64,000 nt of DNA, taken from contig JAGCTE010000071.1 of NCBI GenBank assembly GCA_017963805.1, forward strand, positions 1 through 64,000, read 5' to 3'. Below are positions 18,522 through 62,303 of this stretch, one piece after another; the stretch's first letter is position 1, and each line of letters opens with the position of its first letter. The stretch comes from a bacterium (GTDB taxonomy: Bacteria > Auribacterota > UBA3054). The notes beneath the pieces were generated by a model. That model saw nothing but the letters and a program-made list of their open reading frames with translations. It made no database searches and was not told the origin of the DNA. Position numbers and translations under genes: made by a program.

Positions 18522-19148
18522 CTATTTCTGAGGAACGTAAAGGACGTCGCCTATCTGCAGGGAGCTCTTTTCGGTATTGTTCATCTTCATCAAAGTGGCG
18601 GAGGCGACGCCGAAAGTCCTCGCGATCTTCGAGAAGGTGTCGCCCGGCACCACGGTGTAGGTAGTGACGTCCGGCGCCTGGCTGATCTCGGAAGTGTCGG
18701 CTCTCAAAAGAAGGACCTTCCCGACGGAAAGCGTGGAGCCCGGCCTCAGGCCGTTCAGGTTGCACAGCAATTTCTCGTCGATGCCGTAGGCTTTGGCGAT
18801 GCTTTCCGTGGTGTCTCCCCCAATGCATTTGTGCAGGTAATTCTTGGAATTGACGGCGGAGCCCTTGCTGACGTTCAGCCCGGCGGAAGCCGGGACCAAA
18901 AGATCGGTGTCAGGGCCCTTCTTTTCCTCTTTGCCAACCGTTACGGTGGGGCCTTCGGGGGTGTCGGGAACGCTTATTGGCTTCTCGACGGCCGGGCTGA
19001 CGGTAGTCTCGGTCAAAAGGGCGGGCTTAAGGATAGGCTCGGGCGGTTCCGTCGGAGCGGAGAGCATGACTTCCGAGCTCTTGCGGCAGCCGAAGAAGGC
19101 CAGCGAAAGAGCGGCGGCCAAAAATAGATATAATCTCAAGGTATTCAT
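18522..19148 (-). CDS. LysM-domain lipoprotein
   Basis: 208-residue envelope lipoprotein. The start is placed at ATG 19148 (MNTLRLYLFLAAALSLAFFGC), which gives a lipobox with Cys21; the longer form begins 11 codons upstream, ahead of the -10 box. A Pro/Glu/Val-rich linker (25-100) is followed by two LysM modules: about 118-160 (GDTTESIAKAYGIDEKLLCN) and about 163-206 (YTVVPGDTFSKIARTFGVAS). LysM modules bind peptidoglycan, so the protein probably tethers or scans the cell wall. It heads the minus-strand gcvT/YfhO/GT unit and is divergent from the ferredoxin gene. Confidence 0.88.
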   Translation of the reverse strand: MNTLRLYLFLAAALSLAFFGCRKSSEVMLSAPTEPPEPILKPALLTETTVSPAVEKPISVPDTPEGPTVTVGKEEKKGPDTDLLVPASAGLNVSKGSAVNSKNYLHKCIGGDTTESIAKAYGIDEKLLCNLNGLRPGSTLSVGKVLLLRADTSEISQAPDVTTYTVVPGDTFSKIARTFGVASATLMKMNNTEKSSLQIGDVLYVPQK

Positions 19149-19155
19149 ACTCTTT

Positions 19156-19185
19156 ATTCTACCAAAAGAGCGGATTTTCATACAA
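19156..19185 (-). promoter_or_regulatory. Leaderless-type promoter of the LysM lipoprotein gene
   Basis: Minus strand: TTGTAT, 18-nt spacer, TAGAAT preceded by TTTTGG. The -10 box ends 7 nt before ATG 19148, predicting a leaderless mRNA. The spacer carries CCGCTCTTTT, mirrored in the divergent promoter. Confidence 0.6.
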
Positions 19186-19190
19186 TTGCC

Positions 19191-19219
19191 TTGCTAAAAA
19201 ACCGCTCTTTTCCTACAAT
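19191..19219 (+). promoter_or_regulatory. Leaderless-type promoter of the NapH-like ferredoxin gene
   Basis: TTGCTA (19191-19196), 17-nt spacer, TACAAT (19214-19219), then 7 nt to the GTG start at 19227. The TTG of the -35 box is in frame with the gene and can be miscalled as its start codon. Confidence 0.6.
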
Positions 19220-19226
19220 AACAAGT

Positions 19227-20579
19227 GTGAAGAAAAGTGTGTTTTACCGATGTGTGTGGGGGTTAAGGCTCCTTCTCTCCGCCCTGACGGTCGCTCTTGG
19301 GTCGGCTGCCTTCTTATGCTCCGCCGAATTTTTGGAACAGCTTCCCCTGTGCCAGGCCGGTCCTTCCGCGCTCCGCTTGTTTTTTTCTTTCGGGCTGTCC
19401 TCTCTTGCTGTCGTCCTTGTGCTGGCAATTTTAACGCTGCTCTTCGGCCGCCTTTTCTGTTCCTTCATGTGCCCTCTGGGTTCCGCTCTGAGCTTCATCG
19501 CGCTCTGTTCCAGAAAAGGCAGGAAAAAGATTTTTCCGATCACGGGCGGGCTTATCCTCGGCCTATTTGTCGGCGCTATGGTTTTCTCCCTTGCTTTCGT
19601 TTTCCGTCTGCTTGACCCTTATTCGCTCTTCGGCCGCGCCGTTACGGCGCCGCTTTGGTTCGGCGTCGTTTTCCTTGCCGTCATTCTTGTCGTTACGCTC
19701 CTTTTCGGCCGCCTCTTCTGCACCAGCGTATGCCCCGTCGGGATGCTTCTCAGCCTTTTTGCCAGAAAATCAGCATTCGGCATCGCGATCCCCGATGAGT
19801 GCGTGCATTGCGGCAAATGCGAAAAGGTCTGCCCGACGGGCTGCATCGACCAAAAAAAGAGCGAAGTGAAAAGAGGTTACTGCGTAATGTGCCTGGACTG
19901 CCTGACGGTCTGCCCGAAGACAGGCCCGACTTTTTCTTTCCTCTGGAAGAGCTCTGAAAAAGAAAAGGCGCCCGACCTGGAGCGCCGGAAATTTCTTGTT
20001 TCTCTTACCGTCGGCGCGGCCATAGGATTGGCCGGCGGCGGACTTTTCAAGGCGATCTTTAAGAAGCGCCTTTCCGAAGGAACCGAAAAGAAGCTTCTAG
20101 TCAGGCCTCCAGGCGCAATTACGGAAGGCTCTTTCCTAGCCAAATGCACCGCCTGCGGCCTGTGCGTCTCGAAATGCCCGCAAAAAGTTCTGACTTTGGG
20201 CCCGGCCGGCTTCGGCGCTCCGCGCCTTGATTTCAAGCGCGGCGCTTGCTCTCTTGACTGCGTGAAATGCTCCTTGGTCTGCCCGACCGGAGCTCTCAGA
20301 AAGATCGAGCCCGCAAGGAAGAAAACTTTCGTAATAGGAAAGGCGGTCTTCACGGCGAAGCAATGCATTGCTTTCCAGGGCGGATCCTGCGGCAAATGCG
20401 CTGCGCCCTGCCCGACCGGAGCCATAACTTTAAGAGCCAACGGCACGCCGAAACTGGAAGCCGAAGCGTGCCTCGGCTGCGGAGCCTGCAGCCATGTCTG
20501 TCCCGCCGGCGCCATGCAGATCGCCGGCGCACCCATACAACATTACCTTGACGACACAAACCAAGGAGCCTCATTATGA
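19227..20579 (+). CDS. Membrane-bound polyferredoxin, NapH/NapG-like fusion
   Basis: 450-residue electron-transfer protein. The N-terminal part is NapH/NosR-like: four to five membrane helices with two CxxxCP motifs (FGRLFCSFMCPLG and FGRLFCTSVCPVG), then a cytoplasmic ferredoxin pair CVHCGKCEKVCPTGC and CVMCLDCLTVCP. A second RR-type segment ERRKFLVSLTVGAAIG follows at about 253, then NapG/MauM-like clusters CTACGLCVSKCP, CVKCSLVCPTG, CGKCAAPCPTG and CLGCGACSHVCPAG. It thus looks like NapH joined to NapG. It overlaps the following Tat-exported aldo/keto reductase by 4 nt and probably passes electrons from the membrane to it. Donor and acceptor are unknown. Confidence 0.85.
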   Translation: MKKSVFYRCVWGLRLLLSALTVALGSAAFLCSAEFLEQLPLCQAGPSALRLFFSFGLSSLAVVLVLAILTLLFGRLFCSFMCPLGSALSFIALCSRKGRKKIFPITGGLILGLFVGAMVFSLAFVFRLLDPYSLFGRAVTAPLWFGVVFLAVILVVTLLFGRLFCTSVCPVGMLLSLFARKSAFGIAIPDECVHCGKCEKVCPTGCIDQKKSEVKRGYCVMCLDCLTVCPKTGPTFSFLWKSSEKEKAPDLERRKFLVSLTVGAAIGLAGGGLFKAIFKKRLSEGTEKKLLVRPPGAITEGSFLAKCTACGLCVSKCPQKVLTLGPAGFGAPRLDFKRGACSLDCVKCSLVCPTGALRKIEPARKKTFVIGKAVFTAKQCIAFQGGSCGKCAAPCPTGAITLRANGTPKLEAEACLGCGACSHVCPAGAMQIAGAPIQHYLDDTNQGASL

Positions 20580-21801: not shown

Positions 21802-23052
21802 ATGAACAGAAGAGATTTCATCAAAGGCTCCCTGGCTGTCGCCGCGCTGGCGGCCCTGGGCGGCTGCAAGCAAGGAAAGGAAACCACGGACGTGAAAGAA
21901 GGCAGTAACGGGAAAAAGAAAGGCGAAATGACGAAACGCAAGCTCGGCAGTATCGCGGGCGAAGTTTCCCTTCTGGGCTACGGCCTTATGAGGCTTCCCC
22001 TGAAGGACCGCAAAAATCAAGCTGAGATAGACAAGGAAAAAGCCCAGGAACTCATCGACAAGGCCATGGCAGGCGGCGTCAACTACTACGACACCGCCTG
22101 GGTCTATCACCAGGGCATGTCTGAGAGATTCGCGGGCGAGGCTTTGAAAAAGTACCCGAGGGAATCCTACAACCTGGCCGACAAGATGCCGGTCTGGGAA
22201 GTCAAAAGCATAGACGACGCGAAGCGGATCTTCCAGGAACAACTCGACCGCTGCCAGGCCGAGTACTTCGATTTTTATCTCATGCACTCTCTGAACGGCG
22301 GCGCCTGGCCGAACGTGAGGGACAACGGCGCCCTGGAATACGCCCGCCAGATGAAAAAGGAAGGCAAGGTGAAAAACCTCGGCTTTTCTTTCCACGGAGA
22401 CAACAAGGACCTGGCTGTCATAGCCGACTTTGGCGGCTGGGATTTCGCCCAGATCCAGCTGAACTACTTCGACTGGGATGACTATTCGAAGGAGCAGTAT
22501 GAGATCCTAACCAGCCACGGCATTCCCGTAGTCGTCATGGAGCCGCTTAAGGGCGGCGAACTCGCTAACCTCCGGCCCAAGACGCTGGAGATGCTGACGA
22601 ACGCGAGGCCCAATACGACGGCCGCGCAGTGGGCCTTCGAATTCATCGCCTCGCTTCCCAACGTCCTCACCATTCTCTCCGGCATGACCTACATGGAGCA
22701 CGTGGAAGAGAACCTCAAGACCTTCTCTCCCATCGAACCTTTGAGTGACGAAGGCAAAGAGCTTCTGGCTAAGGTCAAGGAGTTCATGAAGGAAGAGGGG
22801 AAGATTCCCTGCACGACCTGCCGCTACTGTACGCCCTGTCCGGTTGGCGTGGTCATTCCCGACATCTTCAAGATGTACAACAACTACCGCTCATCGCTCG
22901 TGAAGTGGATGTCGCAGAGGGAATACTTCCAGCTTGCCAAAGAATCGAGGGCCGACGCCTGCGTGGAATGCGGCGCCTGCCTGAAGAAGTGCCCGCAGAA
23001 GATCAATATCCCCGAAGAGCTCAAGCGCGTGCACAAGGAGTTCACTAGCTAG
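21802..23052 (+). CDS. Tat-exported aldo/keto reductase with C-terminal 2[4Fe-4S] domain (paralogue)
   Basis: 416-residue tandem paralogue of the preceding gene. The start is ATG 21802 (MNRRDFIKGSLAVAALAALGGC), two nt after the previous stop; an upstream in-frame ATG at 21715 is inside the first gene and is rejected. RR signal plus lipobox, AKR residues in YYDTAWVYHQG, NLADKMP and YLMHSL, and a tail CTTCRYCTPCPVGV...CVECGACLKKCPQK are all kept. It differs mainly by a Lys/Gly-rich linker after the signal. The pair may be subunits or have different substrates. The stop codon abuts a long palindromic repeat. Confidence 0.87.
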   Translation: MNRRDFIKGSLAVAALAALGGCKQGKETTDVKEGSNGKKKGEMTKRKLGSIAGEVSLLGYGLMRLPLKDRKNQAEIDKEKAQELIDKAMAGGVNYYDTAWVYHQGMSERFAGEALKKYPRESYNLADKMPVWEVKSIDDAKRIFQEQLDRCQAEYFDFYLMHSLNGGAWPNVRDNGALEYARQMKKEGKVKNLGFSFHGDNKDLAVIADFGGWDFAQIQLNYFDWDDYSKEQYEILTSHGIPVVVMEPLKGGELANLRPKTLEMLTNARPNTTAAQWAFEFIASLPNVLTILSGMTYMEHVEENLKTFSPIEPLSDEGKELLAKVKEFMKEEGKIPCTTCRYCTPCPVGVVIPDIFKMYNNYRSSLVKWMSQREYFQLAKESRADACVECGACLKKCPQKINIPEELKRVHKEFTS

Positions 23053-23156
23053 CCAAACAAAAAAAGGACATATCCCCAAGTGAACTCACGGAGGACGCAA
23101 ATCAAGGCCATGCAAGCGTAGTCCGTGAACGGGGGATATGTCCTTTTTTGTTTGGC
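23052..23156. repeat. Palindromic repeat element, full copy A
   Basis: Outer arms GCCAAAC...CATATCCCC (23052-23077) and GGGGATATG...GTTTGGC (23132-23156) pair over 25 bp with one bulged A. Inside is a 54-nt core (23078-23131), identical at 50 of 54 positions to copy B. The core itself folds: TCACGGA/TCCGTGA plus ACGC/GCGT around a 17-nt loop containing AAGGCCATGC. A/T runs in the arms let it act as a bidirectional terminator. It fills nearly the whole gap between two convergent stop codons. Confidence 0.85.
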
Positions 23157-23161
23157 GTGAC

Positions 23162-24304
23162 TTATTGAAGAGCTAGATGGCGCCGCGCTTGAAGGGCGAA
23201 GCGGAACGAGAGGTCTTCGATGCCGAAGACGCGGCGGCCGATGAGGTAACTTTCCTGGATGTCGTTGAAGGGTTCGTACCAGTGCGGTGAGAGTGTTGAG
23301 TTTCCCCAGGCCGCGCCGGCAATGGAGCCGGCGGTGGCGGCGGTGCAGTCGCAGTCATGGGCCATGGCGACGCACTGCGAGATGACGGTGTCGATGGACT
23401 TCGTCTCGTGTCCGAGGCCCAGGGCGAATATGGTCAGGCAGGCGTTGTTGACGGTATGCACCGGGGACATATCCGGGAAGCGCTCGTCTACGAGTTTCGC
23501 GGCCTCTTTGTAATCTTTCACTTTGCCGTAAAGGGAAAGCGCCCATCTTACGGCTTCCGAAAGATCGCATTTTTCCGGGATCTCAAGTAGCCCCGCTTCC
23601 AGGGCGGCTTTGGGATCCTTAAGGGCGAAGGCGGAGCTTATGACCGCGGCGAAATACATTTCCCCGTAGATGCCGTTTTTGCGGTGGCTGATGTAGGCGT
23701 CGGTGTAGGCTAATTTGGCGGCCAGTCTCGGATTCCCGGGGGCCATGTAGGCGAAGCCGTCGCAGCGGATGTCCGCGCCGATCCATTCGTCGTAGGGATT
23801 GTCCTTTTCCGCGGCTTTTTCAGGCGCTATGCCGGCCTTGAGGTTGTCCAAGGTCACTTTCTCGGCGGTGCAGGCCATGGGAAGATATTTCAGCCAGGCG
23901 TCGGCCACGTCCTGAAGCGTGAAGGGGAAATTCTTGGCTTCCTCGGCGATGATGAGGCCTAAGATGGTGTAGGTGGTGTCGTCGTCCACCGGCGAATACT
24001 TCATCTCGGGAGCGGTGTACTGGCGGTTTCTGCCCAGGATGTAGCGCGGCTCCTCAGGGTCCGGCGAGGAGGGCCAGTAGTTCGTCATAGGGTAGGGGAC
24101 GCCGATTTCTTTGGCATAATTCTCCATCTTTTCCAATGACCAGCCTTCCACTATGGCTCCCAAATTACAGCCCGCTATACGGGCTCTGAGGGAGCTTAAA
24201 ACCATGCTCTGGTAGTTATCGGGGATCGTGTTCCAAAATTTCTTGGAGCCGGCGGGGCAGGCGGCCAGTATTTCTTCGTATGCGTTCGGTTCGCGATCAG
24301 GCAT
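23162..24304 (-). CDS. ADP-ribosylglycohydrolase family protein
   Basis: 380-residue all-helical metal-dependent hydrolase of the DraG/ARH type, which removes ADP-ribose from proteins or small molecules. The two Mg-binding motifs are present: SPVDDDTTYTIL (about 105) and MAHDCDCTAATAGSIAGAAWG (about 312), the latter being the DxDTxAxxxGxxxGA signature with Cys in place of the residue after Asp. It is the last gene of the VTC/DUF4956 unit; its ATG overlaps the preceding small membrane gene by 8 nt. A link to reversal of ADP-ribosylation in that system is inference. Confidence 0.87.
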   Translation of the reverse strand: MPDREPNAYEEILAACPAGSKKFWNTIPDNYQSMVLSSLRARIAGCNLGAIVEGWSLEKMENYAKEIGVPYPMTNYWPSSPDPEEPRYILGRNRQYTAPEMKYSPVDDDTTYTILGLIIAEEAKNFPFTLQDVADAWLKYLPMACTAEKVTLDNLKAGIAPEKAAEKDNPYDEWIGADIRCDGFAYMAPGNPRLAAKLAYTDAYISHRKNGIYGEMYFAAVISSAFALKDPKAALEAGLLEIPEKCDLSEAVRWALSLYGKVKDYKEAAKLVDERFPDMSPVHTVNNACLTIFALGLGHETKSIDTVISQCVAMAHDCDCTAATAGSIAGAAWGNSTLSPHWYEPFNDIQESYLIGRRVFGIEDLSFRFALQARRHLALQ

Positions 24305-59811: not shown

Positions 59812-60843
59812 TTACTGATTGTTGTTGAAGTTGAAAAGTTCGTCCACGATGGGACCGTCGTAATTCAGATGAAGATGATCGTAAGCTTTTTTCAGAGGAA
59901 CGCGGCCCTTGTTGGTCCGCATGATGAAACCCTGCTGGATGAGGTAGGGCTCTATCACTTCCTCGATGGTGGAGACTTCCTCGCTTATGGTCACGGCGAT
60001 GTTGTTGACGCCGGTGGGGCGGCCGCCGAATTTTTCGATGAGCGCCAGAAGATAGGCGTGATCCATGTCGTCGAGGCCGAGTTCGTCTATCCTAAGCATG
60101 TCGAGGGCTTCCCTCGCCAGTTTTTGCGTGATGACGCCGTCGCCCTTGACCTGGGCGTAGTCCCTGACGCGTCGGACCAGGAAGTTCGCGATCCTAGGCG
60201 TTCCGCGGGACCTCCCGGCTATCTCGGAGAGAGCCTCCTCTTCGATGCCTGTCTTCAGGATCATGGCGGAGCGCCTCACGATCTCGCAGAGTTCCTTTAC
60301 GCTGTAGAATTCGAGCCTCAAGGATATGCCGAAGCGCTCCCTCAAAGGCGCCGTCAGGTTTCCCATCCTGGTCGTCGCGCCGATAAGCGTGAAATGCTTG
60401 AGGTCGAGCCTCACCGAGCGAGCCTGCGGGCCCTGGTCGATCATGATGTCGATCATGAAGTCCTCCATGGCGGAATAGAGATATTCCTCCACGGAAGAAT
60501 CGAGGCGGTGGATCTCGTCGATGAAGAGGATGTCGCCGTTCTCAAGGTTGGTCAGAAGCCCGGCCAGGTCTCCCGGCTTTTCGATTATGGGGCCGGAAGT
60601 CGTCTTGATGGACACGCCTCTCTCCTGGGCGATGATGTTAGCCAGCGTCGTTTTGCCGAGCCCCGGAGGGCCGTAAAGGAGGATGTGGTCGACAGCTTCG
60701 TCTCTTCTTCTGGCGGCTTCCACCGCGATGTGAAGCTGTTCCTTGATCCTCTCCTGCCCGGTGAAGTCAGAGAAGCGCTGGGGCCTCAGGGTGAGGTCGA
60801 CAAGGTCGTCCTTTTGCGGAATATTTCTAATAAGGGAACTCAT
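59812..60843 (-). CDS. ruvB: Holliday junction helicase RuvB
   Basis: 343-residue AAA+ motor. [19 protein letters not shown], Walker [16 protein letters not shown], Walker [25 protein letters not shown], sensor [26 protein letters not shown], and C-terminal winged helix [17 protein letters not shown]...[13 protein letters not shown]. Unlinked from ruvAC. It heads a seven-gene unit ruvB-hisG-lipoyl-GT2-polyamine genes with gaps of 6, 1, 0 and 21 nt, then overlaps. Confidence 0.97.
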
Positions 60844-60862: not shown

Positions 60863-60898
60863 AAGTCCCCGCGATGAATGTCATGATTATACCGAGAC

Positions 60899-60938
60899 GA
60901 AAAAAGGATACCTCCCAAAGCGAACTCACGGAGGATGC
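60899..60938. repeat. Palindromic repeat element, partial left-half copy
   Basis: Left-arm-like AAAAAAGGATACCTCCC followed by a 21-nt block (60918-60938) identical to the left core of copy B (60975-60995). The loop and right half are missing. It stands 14 nt before copy B, in the same orientation. Confidence 0.75.
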
Positions 60939-60952
60939 CAATGATGTTCGAG

Positions 60953-61052
60953 CGCGAACGCGGCATGTACCCTTAAGCGAACTCACGGAGGATGCAAATC
61001 AAGGCCATGCACGCGTAGTCCGTGAGCGAGGGGTATATGCCGCGTTTACGCG
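60953..61052. repeat. Palindromic repeat element, full copy B
   Basis: Outer arms AACGCGGCATGTACCC (60957-60972) and GGGTATATGCCGCGTT (61031-61046) pair over 16 bp including one G-U, with CGCG/CGCG extending outside. The core 60975-61028 is identical to copy A at 50 of 54 positions; the inner stem TCACGGA/TCCGTGA is kept and ATGC/GCGT pairs with one G-U. The arms differ in sequence from copy A yet still pair. Located between the rho stop and the ruvB promoter. Confidence 0.85.
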
Positions 61053-61058
61053 ACGCAA

Positions 61059-62303
61059 TTATCCGCGGAGCGAGGCCAGTAGCGCTTTATTCGTATCGTA
61101 GCGCGCGATGAGTTCCTTCAGTGTCACCGCGGCGTCCTTCACGTTCTCATCCGCCAGGATGCGGCGGAGCGTCACGATCTTGGCGTATTCTTTCGCGGAG
61201 TAGAGAAGCTCTTCGCGGCGGGTGCCGGACTGATAGACGTTGATGGCGGGGAAGATCCTCGCTTCCGCCAAGACGCGGTCGAGGACGATCTCGCAGTTGC
61301 CGGTCCCTTTGAATTCCTGGAAGATCAGTTCGTCCATGCGGGAGCCGGTGTCAACTAAAGCGGTGGCGATGATGGTGAGCGATCCGCCGTTCTCTATTTT
61401 CCTCGCCATGCCGAAGAAGCGGCGGGGTATCTCCATGGAGCCGGGCGCCAGGCCGCCGGACATAAGCTTGTTGGAGTAAACGTTGTTCAGGTTGAAAGCG
61501 CGGCCGGTCCTCGTTATGCTGTCGAGCAGCACGACCACGTCTTTGCCGCATTCCAGTTCCACCTTTATCGTGTCCATGGTGGCCCTGACCAATTCGACAT
61601 GCTCCTTGGGAGTCTGGTCGTTGCAGGAGGCGAAGACGTCGACGCCCTCGAGGACGCGCTTGAACTGGGTGACTTCCTCGGGCCTTTCGTCGACAAGAAG
61701 GACTATGACGTGGGTTTCCGGGGAAACTTTCTTAATGGAAGAGGCCAGCTTTTCCAGAATGGTGGTCTTGCCGGCCTTCGGGGGAGAGACGATCAAGGCT
61801 CGCGTGCCTTTGCCGATCGGCGTCACCAGGTCTATTATGCGCATGGTCTCGTCGCCGGTCGCGGCGAGGTTGAAGCGTTCGTCGGGGGCCACGGCCGGAA
61901 GTTCCGGAAGCTGTGGCCTGAAGCGGAAAACTTCGGGTAGCAGTCCGTTCACGGAATCGATCTCATAGACCCATTTCTTGCCGTCTATTTCGGCCATGCG
62001 CCCTTCAATGAAGGCGCCCTGTATGAGGCCGTAGCGGCGGCAGAGCTCCTGGCGGATGTATATCTCGTCGCCATCGGGCTTGAAGGACCTTTCCGGTTTC
62101 CTTAAAATTGGGCCTTTGTCGTTGCGTCTCACCACGCCGGAAACGGGGGTGAATTCCTGAGGCGGTTCCTCAAGGACGGGATCTTTGTGGAACTTGTTGT
62201 CGAAATAACGTCTGCGGCCGCCGTAATTCCGGAATTTGCCGTTGTTGTTGTTTCTGTTTTTGTAGAAACGACCTTTGCGCTGTTTGTTGCTGTAATTAGC
62301 CAT
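61059..62303 (-). CDS. rho: Transcription termination factor Rho with unusual N-terminus
   Basis: 414-residue hexameric RNA translocase. Walker A SPPKAGKTTILEKLASS, Walker B VIVLLVDERPEEVTQF, Q-loop region NDQTPKEHVELVRATMDTIKVE, DSITRTGRAFNLNN and EFKGTGNCEIVLDR are all present. The N-terminal 60 residues are Asn/Arg/Gly/Lys-rich (NKQRKGRFYKNRNNNNGKF) instead of the normal helical Rho-N domain, before a cold-shock-like RNA site (EIYIRQELCRRYGLIQGAFIEG). Such basic low-complexity insertions are known in Rho of several phyla and alter RNA binding or phase behaviour. Confidence 0.96.
   Translation of the reverse strand: MANYSNKQRKGRFYKNRNNNNGKFRNYGGRRRYFDNKFHKDPVLEEPPQEFTPVSGVVRRNDKGPILRKPERSFKPDGDEIYIRQELCRRYGLIQGAFIEGRMAEIDGKKWVYEIDSVNGLLPEVFRFRPQLPELPAVAPDERFNLAATGDETMRIIDLVTPIGKGTRALIVSPPKAGKTTILEKLASSIKKVSPETHVIVLLVDERPEEVTQFKRVLEGVDVFASCNDQTPKEHVELVRATMDTIKVELECGKDVVVLLDSITRTGRAFNLNNVYSNKLMSGGLAPGSMEIPRRFFGMARKIENGGSLTIIATALVDTGSRMDELIFQEFKGTGNCEIVLDRVLAEARIFPAINVYQSGTRREELLYSAKEYAKIVTLRRILADENVKDAAVTLKELIARYDTNKALLASLRG

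Follow-up and report, generated by a model that had tools for sequence, protein, structure and literature searches.

A genus-specific family of long REP-like hairpins with paired variable arms, self-nesting and inverted interiors

Introduction

Among the dispersed palindromes described so far, the GTAG- and CGTC-tagged REP elements are small hairpins (PMC3733652). They are extragenic, lie mostly outside open reading frames, reach 20 to 100 copies per genome and occur as head- or tail-paired copies with variable stems of 5–13 bp. GTAG REPs carry the tetranucleotide at the base of the stem-loop and are associated with a RAYT (Y1, PF01797), whose gene is typically flanked by the repeats; CGTC-class REPs have no dedicated transposase, and some REP families are located inside palindromes. 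In REPINs, which also go with a RAYT, two inverted half-sites form a single hairpin (PMC3116915). Mobile-looking intergenic repeats are known from mitochondria as hairpin-forming and double-hairpin elements, some of them in tandem, with conserved stems and variable loops (PMC2800124). Template switching between inverted repeats homogenizes their arms and inverts the spacer (PMC8604942), and a role in the origin and upkeep of hairpins has been proposed for it (PMC8794818).

Here, we analyze a hairpin family that came to light as two similar copies, A and B, in a stretch of 64,000 nucleotides (contig JAGCTE010000071.1, positions 1 to 64,000; hereafter the window). A sequence-only reading had described them as a dispersed palindromic element with a conserved core and arms that differ and yet pair. 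The home genome (G000; 2.05 Mb, 74 contigs) was compared with seven other genomes of the genus (G001 to G007); all are draft MAGs, 83–93% complete.

Results

Both copies were found in the sequence, and the family proved larger than had been noticed. BLAST aligned the first 58 nucleotides of copy A to copy B with 91% identity. The unit folds into a hairpin approximately 100 nucleotides long, with an invariant, asymmetric core (CTCACGGA-GG-ACGC on the 5′ side, GCGT-AG-TCCGTGAG on the 3′ side), conserved 5′ bulges (AAG and GAA), and a conserved loop of 17 nucleotides (AAATCAAGGCCATGCAC/A). The inner hairpin of the sequence-only reading is present, but its stem extends past a conserved 2 × 2 mismatch (GG/AG) into ACGC/GCGT, and the true loop of copy A is the 17-nt AAATCAAGGCCATGCAA. 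The single change reported there for the inner stem, from C–G to U–G, is the exchange of ACGC for ATGC against GCGT. An invariant GTAG tetranucleotide is located beside the apical loop (GCGTAGTCC). The core is closed by a conserved foot, CATAYCCC, which is followed by 12 to 18 further pairs varying by site; the complete stem exceeds 30 bp.

Copy A, as read directly from the sequence, covers positions 23053–23155 of the plus strand and lies, as described before, in a convergent gap with A/T runs on both sides. The stop codon (TAG) of the plus-strand gene is at 23050–23052, the minus-strand gene ends at 23162, and one of the two genes has weak matches to aldo/keto reductases, the other to ADP-ribosylglycohydrolases. 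According to sequence and fold, the 5′ arm (CCAAACAAAAAAAGGACATATCCCC, 23053–23077, including the A-run; the same letters are found in the sister genome G003) and the 3′ arm (GGGGATATGTCCTTTTTTGTTTGG, 23132–23155, including the T-run) form 25 bp with a bulge of one base and the runs A7 and T6. The arms enclose the conserved 5′ half of the core (23078–23098: the bulge AAGTGAA, the stem CTCACGGA, the GG mismatch, and ACGC), the apical loop (23099–23115), and the conserved 3′ half (23116–23131: GCGT-AG-TCCGTGA-ACG). The predicted fold has a free energy of −57.6 kcal/mol (z −8.5), and none of 200 shuffled sequences was equally stable.

Copy B (60952–61051, plus strand) is located between rho, directly after its stop codon, and ruvB (window 61059–62303 and 59812–60843). 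It is situated immediately downstream of rho, which encodes the termination factor Rho, and upstream of ruvB. For the stretch with copy B, the predicted free energy is −66.9 kcal/mol (z −5.5). The copy comprises a 5′ arm (GCGCGAACGCGGCATGTACCC, 60952–60972), a core (60973–61030, with the 5′ half at 60981–60995, the loop at 60996–61012, and the 3′ half at 61013–61025), and a 3′ arm (GGGTATATGCCGCGTTTACGC, 61031–61051). Directly upstream, at 60894–60951 of the same strand, we identified the remnant of a second, older element, namely, its 5′ half, which the sequence-only reading had missed. It consists of the 5′ arm GAGACGAAAAAAGGATACCTCCC (60894–60916) and, at 60917–60951, the core 5′ half AAAGCGAACTCACGGAGGATGC followed by the start of an altered loop, CAATGATGTTCGA. 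Both arms of this older element (GAGACGAAAAAAGGATACCTCCC-AAAGCGAACTCACGGAGGATGC) are present in G001 to G004. In G003, the element is complete and has no other copy in its loop, whereas the home genome has lost the 3′ half. Copy B is nested in the loop of this older element.

The core search suggested with the sequence-only reading revealed many copies in the home genome and its relatives, in line with the dispersed element proposed there. BLAST with copy A gave 39 matches in the home genome, about 27 of them substantial copies (E ≤ 6e-6), and each of the seven further genomes of the genus contains the element, with 16 to 24 matches in G001 to G004 and one to five in G005 to G007. In a covariance model search, in which weaker opposite-strand matches to the same hairpin were discounted, the counts rose to about 34–40 loci each in G003 and G001. 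Chance is ruled out as the source of the likeness between copies A and B, because about 27 copies are present in the home genome and 16 to 40 in the high-copy sister genomes. Outside the genus, the element was absent from 51 out of 51 genomes. A scan of approximately 85,000 GTDB species genomes for the core pattern returned 85 stretches from that genus only, all of them in seven ruminant-gut MAGs (RGIG3546, 7086, 7520, 7788, 8200, 9704, and 9765). Carriage by phages was rejected, the core pattern being absent from the viral contigs scanned. The Rfam search of the window yielded only a tRNA above the gathering score and no family matching the element, which agrees with the earlier statement that no known family was recognized.

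Most copies (123 out of 135) lie outside the open reading frames called with a crude ORF caller. Counted once per orthologous site, and with a crude gene caller, 24 sites are in tandem, 18 in convergent, and six in divergent gene context, with convergent exceeding divergent sites (p 0.02). Neighboring elements, observed as pairs at nine loci, are always arranged minus-then-plus with short linkers, similar to REP doublets. At three loci, an open reading frame with a PEP-CTERM-like tail (VPEPAFLGLLALTALAFLRRK) is located upstream of the element; such a tail may point to a Planctomycetes–Verrucomicrobia relative.

Other palindromes were also observed. A second hairpin family with the core CCCTTGGCAAACAGGCTTCGCTGAGTTTGCTTACGGG and variable palindromic arms of its own was seen at more than 24 loci. 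The two families have AGTTYGCTTAVGGG in common, and since both also have variable palindromic arms, their sequences suggest a superfamily. A third palindromic family (core CCCCTCTTGATTTTACTTCGTAACAAAATCTTGAGGGG, A/T-rich arms; four loci) often adjoins the element. Within the window, an imperfect inverted repeat at 19144–19231, with 35-nt arms (80% complementary) spaced by 18 nucleotides, surrounds a divergent gene start.

The pairing of the differing arms was confirmed by the covariance analysis, which showed strong covariation. Across 40 copies, 22 of the 23 pairs of the outer helix have changed on both sides, and 90.6% of the positions are paired. For the structure taken as a whole, the covariation score reached 0.385, compared to 0.158 for shuffled and at most 0.140 for slid alignments; the covariation above these controls resides in the outer helix, the inner stem being almost invariant and hence uninformative. 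In 47 pairs of orthologs with similar arms, 89 pair changes were compensated, 34 proceeded via G–U, and 50 were one-sided and broke the pair. Compensation also occurs within the orthologs of one arm; at one site, for example, four out of four changes that separate G003 from G001 are compensated. In the table of 40 copies, G–U accounts for approximately 3.6% of the paired outer-arm cells. Such a low share fits maintenance of the double strand at the DNA level as well as maintenance in two directions and does not separate the two.

Strong covariation by itself is no proof of a functional RNA, because template switching can keep arms complementary in the absence of selection. The sequence-only reading had taken the maintained pairing as an argument for selection on structure. 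This is not established, given the inverted interiors between unchanged arms described below and template switching as an alternative (PMC8604942, PMC8794818); selection on structure is a reasonable assumption but not a necessary one.

Copy A, which is single in G000, holds a complete second element in its loop in G003, where the flanks are about 96% identical. The nested form reads TAGAAAGCCGCA - GTGCGAG...CTCGCAC - TACAC, with 12 nucleotides before and five after the inner element. The loci analyzed contain eight complete nested copies. In every one of them, inner and outer element point the same way, mostly with the same 12/5-nt split of the loop. Duplication links two of these copies and orthology accounts for a further one, which leaves fewer than eight independent events. 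At all three sites that offer both forms for comparison (A, B, and a third represented by L022 and L090), the outer loop differs between the nested and the unnested form. Because the uninserted loop sequence is not kept in the nested forms, nesting reads as a replacement of the loop and not as a plain insertion. The arms are inverted repeats, and at the three nested sites, the uninserted and interrupted loops differ with no duplication readable. Of the REP/MITE-like nature considered earlier, the REP-like part stands; a strict MITE is not indicated, as no target-site duplication was shown and no transposase of the families searched was found in the high-copy genomes. Among the nested elements, the arm sequence types GTGCGAGCTAAGCAC and GTGCGAACGCAGCAT recur, which suggests mobile sub-families and perhaps an undetected mobilizer.

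G001 to G004 share their arms at site B, but G001 and G002 carry the interior in the opposite orientation to G003 and G004. The loop is of type I (AAATCAAGGCCATGCAC) in G003, and the remaining genomes have type II (GGAGTTCCTCGAAAATTGAGC or a similar sequence). A second site shows the interior inverted between G001 and G004 with 25 out of 25 arm positions identical. An inverted interior between unchanged arms, as at these two sites, is the pattern of a template-switch palindrome. Further flips go along with differing arms and may have arisen independently. Among closely related species, the hairpin of a given gene end is thus seen as a single, a nested, or an inverted form.

In G003 (L121:1800–4900) and G006, two inverted nested copies border a segment of 2.7 kb with one open reading frame of 821 amino acids. 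The counterpart of this site in G000 has one nested copy and lacks the gene. An autonomous, cargo-bearing form was considered for the segment and rejected, since by eye, the 821-aa open reading frame shows no obvious transposase.

Copy A has the appearance of an intrinsic terminator in both directions, consistent with the terminator cassette considered before: it lies where genes end, and in either direction its stable stem leads into a T-run. A simple consensus terminator scan, which permits loops of 3–8 nucleotides only, did not call it. At site A, the element is present only in G000 and G003. By reading, AAACGCACGCC-TATC-GGCGTGCGTTTTTT follows the homologous stop codon in G002 and G004, and hairpin-plus-T-run sequences occupy the same place in G005, G006, and G007. 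As these five sister species have another terminator-like hairpin in the position of copy A, intrinsic termination in both directions is the probable role of the A/T-flanked copies. A T-run is found in 50 out of 135 copies, and A-run and T-run together in 37 out of 135. Since most copies are devoid of a T-run, they are not obvious terminators, and termination cannot explain the whole family. In G001, G002, and G004, a small open reading frame similar to a Phd-type antitoxin was observed near or in place of copy A.

Candidate mobilizers were sought with five protein families. No match to PF01797 (Y1), PF00078 (reverse transcriptase), PF00239 (serine recombinase), or PF01548 (IS110) was obtained in G000 to G004, which leaves these enzymes as rejected candidates in the five high-copy genomes; this absence is suggestive only, as it comes from draft genomes and from a search that covered the named families and no other DDE families. 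The fifth family, PF00589 (tyrosine recombinase), is represented by two proteins per high-copy genome, which are probably the host XerC/XerD pair and not an obvious dedicated mobilizer. One Y1 gene and one reverse transcriptase gene, each the only one of its kind found, are present in the low-copy genome G006. Its Y1 protein is RAYT-like (308 amino acids), and no element was detected on the 2.9-kb locus around the gene.

Discussion

The reading we favor, with a rough probability of 0.55, is a genus-specific family of long REP-like elements that is remodeled at the DNA level and whose A/T-run copies have taken on a terminator role. The units are located at gene ends, where those with arms ending in A/T runs most likely fold in RNA made from either direction and replace an ordinary terminator. 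Remodeling takes place in situ: the segment between the arms is inverted or exchanged for another loop type, or alternatively, the interior gives way to 12 nucleotides, a whole further element oriented like the outer one, and five nucleotides, resulting in a hairpin within a hairpin. The most probable engine acts on the DNA: at replication forks, hairpin copies would undergo template switching or ectopic conversion with one another, and this would also keep the arms complementary. Template switching may in this way account for both the covarying arms and the inversions without selection, and selection for stem pairing is likely to be added in the terminator copies. Nesting would need an extra step, for instance, ectopic copying from another hairpin or an enzyme, because template switching alone does not obviously yield it. 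As a tentative generalization, the family might represent a class of mobile hairpins free of transposases, in which the folded core is the site of exchange and copies invert, swap loops, and insert at a fixed position into the loops of fellow copies, so that nested terminators would form with no dedicated enzyme involved. Two questions become testable, namely, which share of stem covariation stems from selection and which from template switching, and how small palindromic repeats are dispersed where no transposase can be seen.

A doubtful but possible alternative is a non-autonomous transposable hairpin, REPIN- or MITE-like, served by an undetected transposase that reads the folded core and prefers the apical loops of existing copies. 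Such an enzyme would be in accordance with the dispersal of the copies, with a defined nested unit of approximately 96–105 nucleotides, with nesting that is specific in position (12/5) and orientation in eight out of eight complete cases, and with the REP-doublet-like pairs and recurrent arm types. However, the five high-copy genomes yielded no gene for any of the four enzyme types searched for besides tyrosine recombinases, and the sole Y1 gene belongs to low-copy G006, with no element detected on its 2.9-kb locus. Furthermore, no clean target-site duplication accompanies the nested copies, in which the loop is altered, and the compared copies are mostly at sites shared across species, although the comparison set is element-centered and most aligned sites in it carry the element.

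It is improbable that the elements are solely a cis-acting structured RNA or terminator family, shaped by selection on RNA pairing and spread by ordinary duplication. Covarying arms, compensated changes at orthologous sites, the near-invariant loop, the bias to the 3′ ends of genes, and the terminator-like hairpins in the place of copy A in sister species are all compatible with it. Nevertheless, it leaves the inversion of interiors between the same arms, the nesting, and the swapping of loops unexplained; the G–U share of about 3.6% appears small if the RNA is made from a single strand only, and the T-run is missing in many copies. Insertion of the core into pre-existing, locus-specific palindromes, by which arm differences would be target differences and covariation would not be compensatory, is very improbable: nested elements do sit within another palindrome, as do some published REP families (PMC3733652), but most copies have the CATAYCCC part of the arm in common, the site A hairpins of the element-free species have stems unlike the arms of copy A, and compensated changes also separate orthologs of one arm.

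Taking the DNA-level remodeling of a REP-like family as the preferred reading, the element can be set beside the known systems. Copy A shares with bidirectional intrinsic (Rho-independent) terminators the stable stem, the preceding A-run, the following T-run, and the convergent stop codons; in contrast to these, it belongs to a dispersed family with an invariant core and a 17-nt loop, most members of which have no T-run. The mitochondrial hairpin elements (PMC2800124) resemble it as mobile-looking intergenic hairpin repeats. In these organellar elements, the stems are conserved and the loops variable, whereas in the bacterial family, loop and inner stem are conserved and the outer stems vary. 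A search of the literature on nested palindromic elements found nothing closer. With REPINs (PMC3116915), the family has in common that two inverted half-sites give one hairpin and that adjacent inverted pairs occur; it differs in its conserved 17-nt loop spacer, its site-variable arms, and the absence of a RAYT from the five high-copy genomes, which are incomplete MAGs. The likeness to REPs (PMC3733652) extends to the dispersal in extragenic regions, the copy number, the variable hairpin stems, the paired copies, the location of some copies inside palindromes, and, for the CGTC class, the lack of a dedicated transposase. Unlike REPs, the element has a stem of about 30–37 bp, nests within itself, and shows inverted interiors. 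Because its GTAG is located by the apical loop and not at the hairpin base and no RAYT is associated with it, the family is neither a GTAG REP nor a REPIN; as a dispersed extragenic palindrome with about 27 copies in G000 and 34–40 in G001 and G003, it is a REP in the broad sense.
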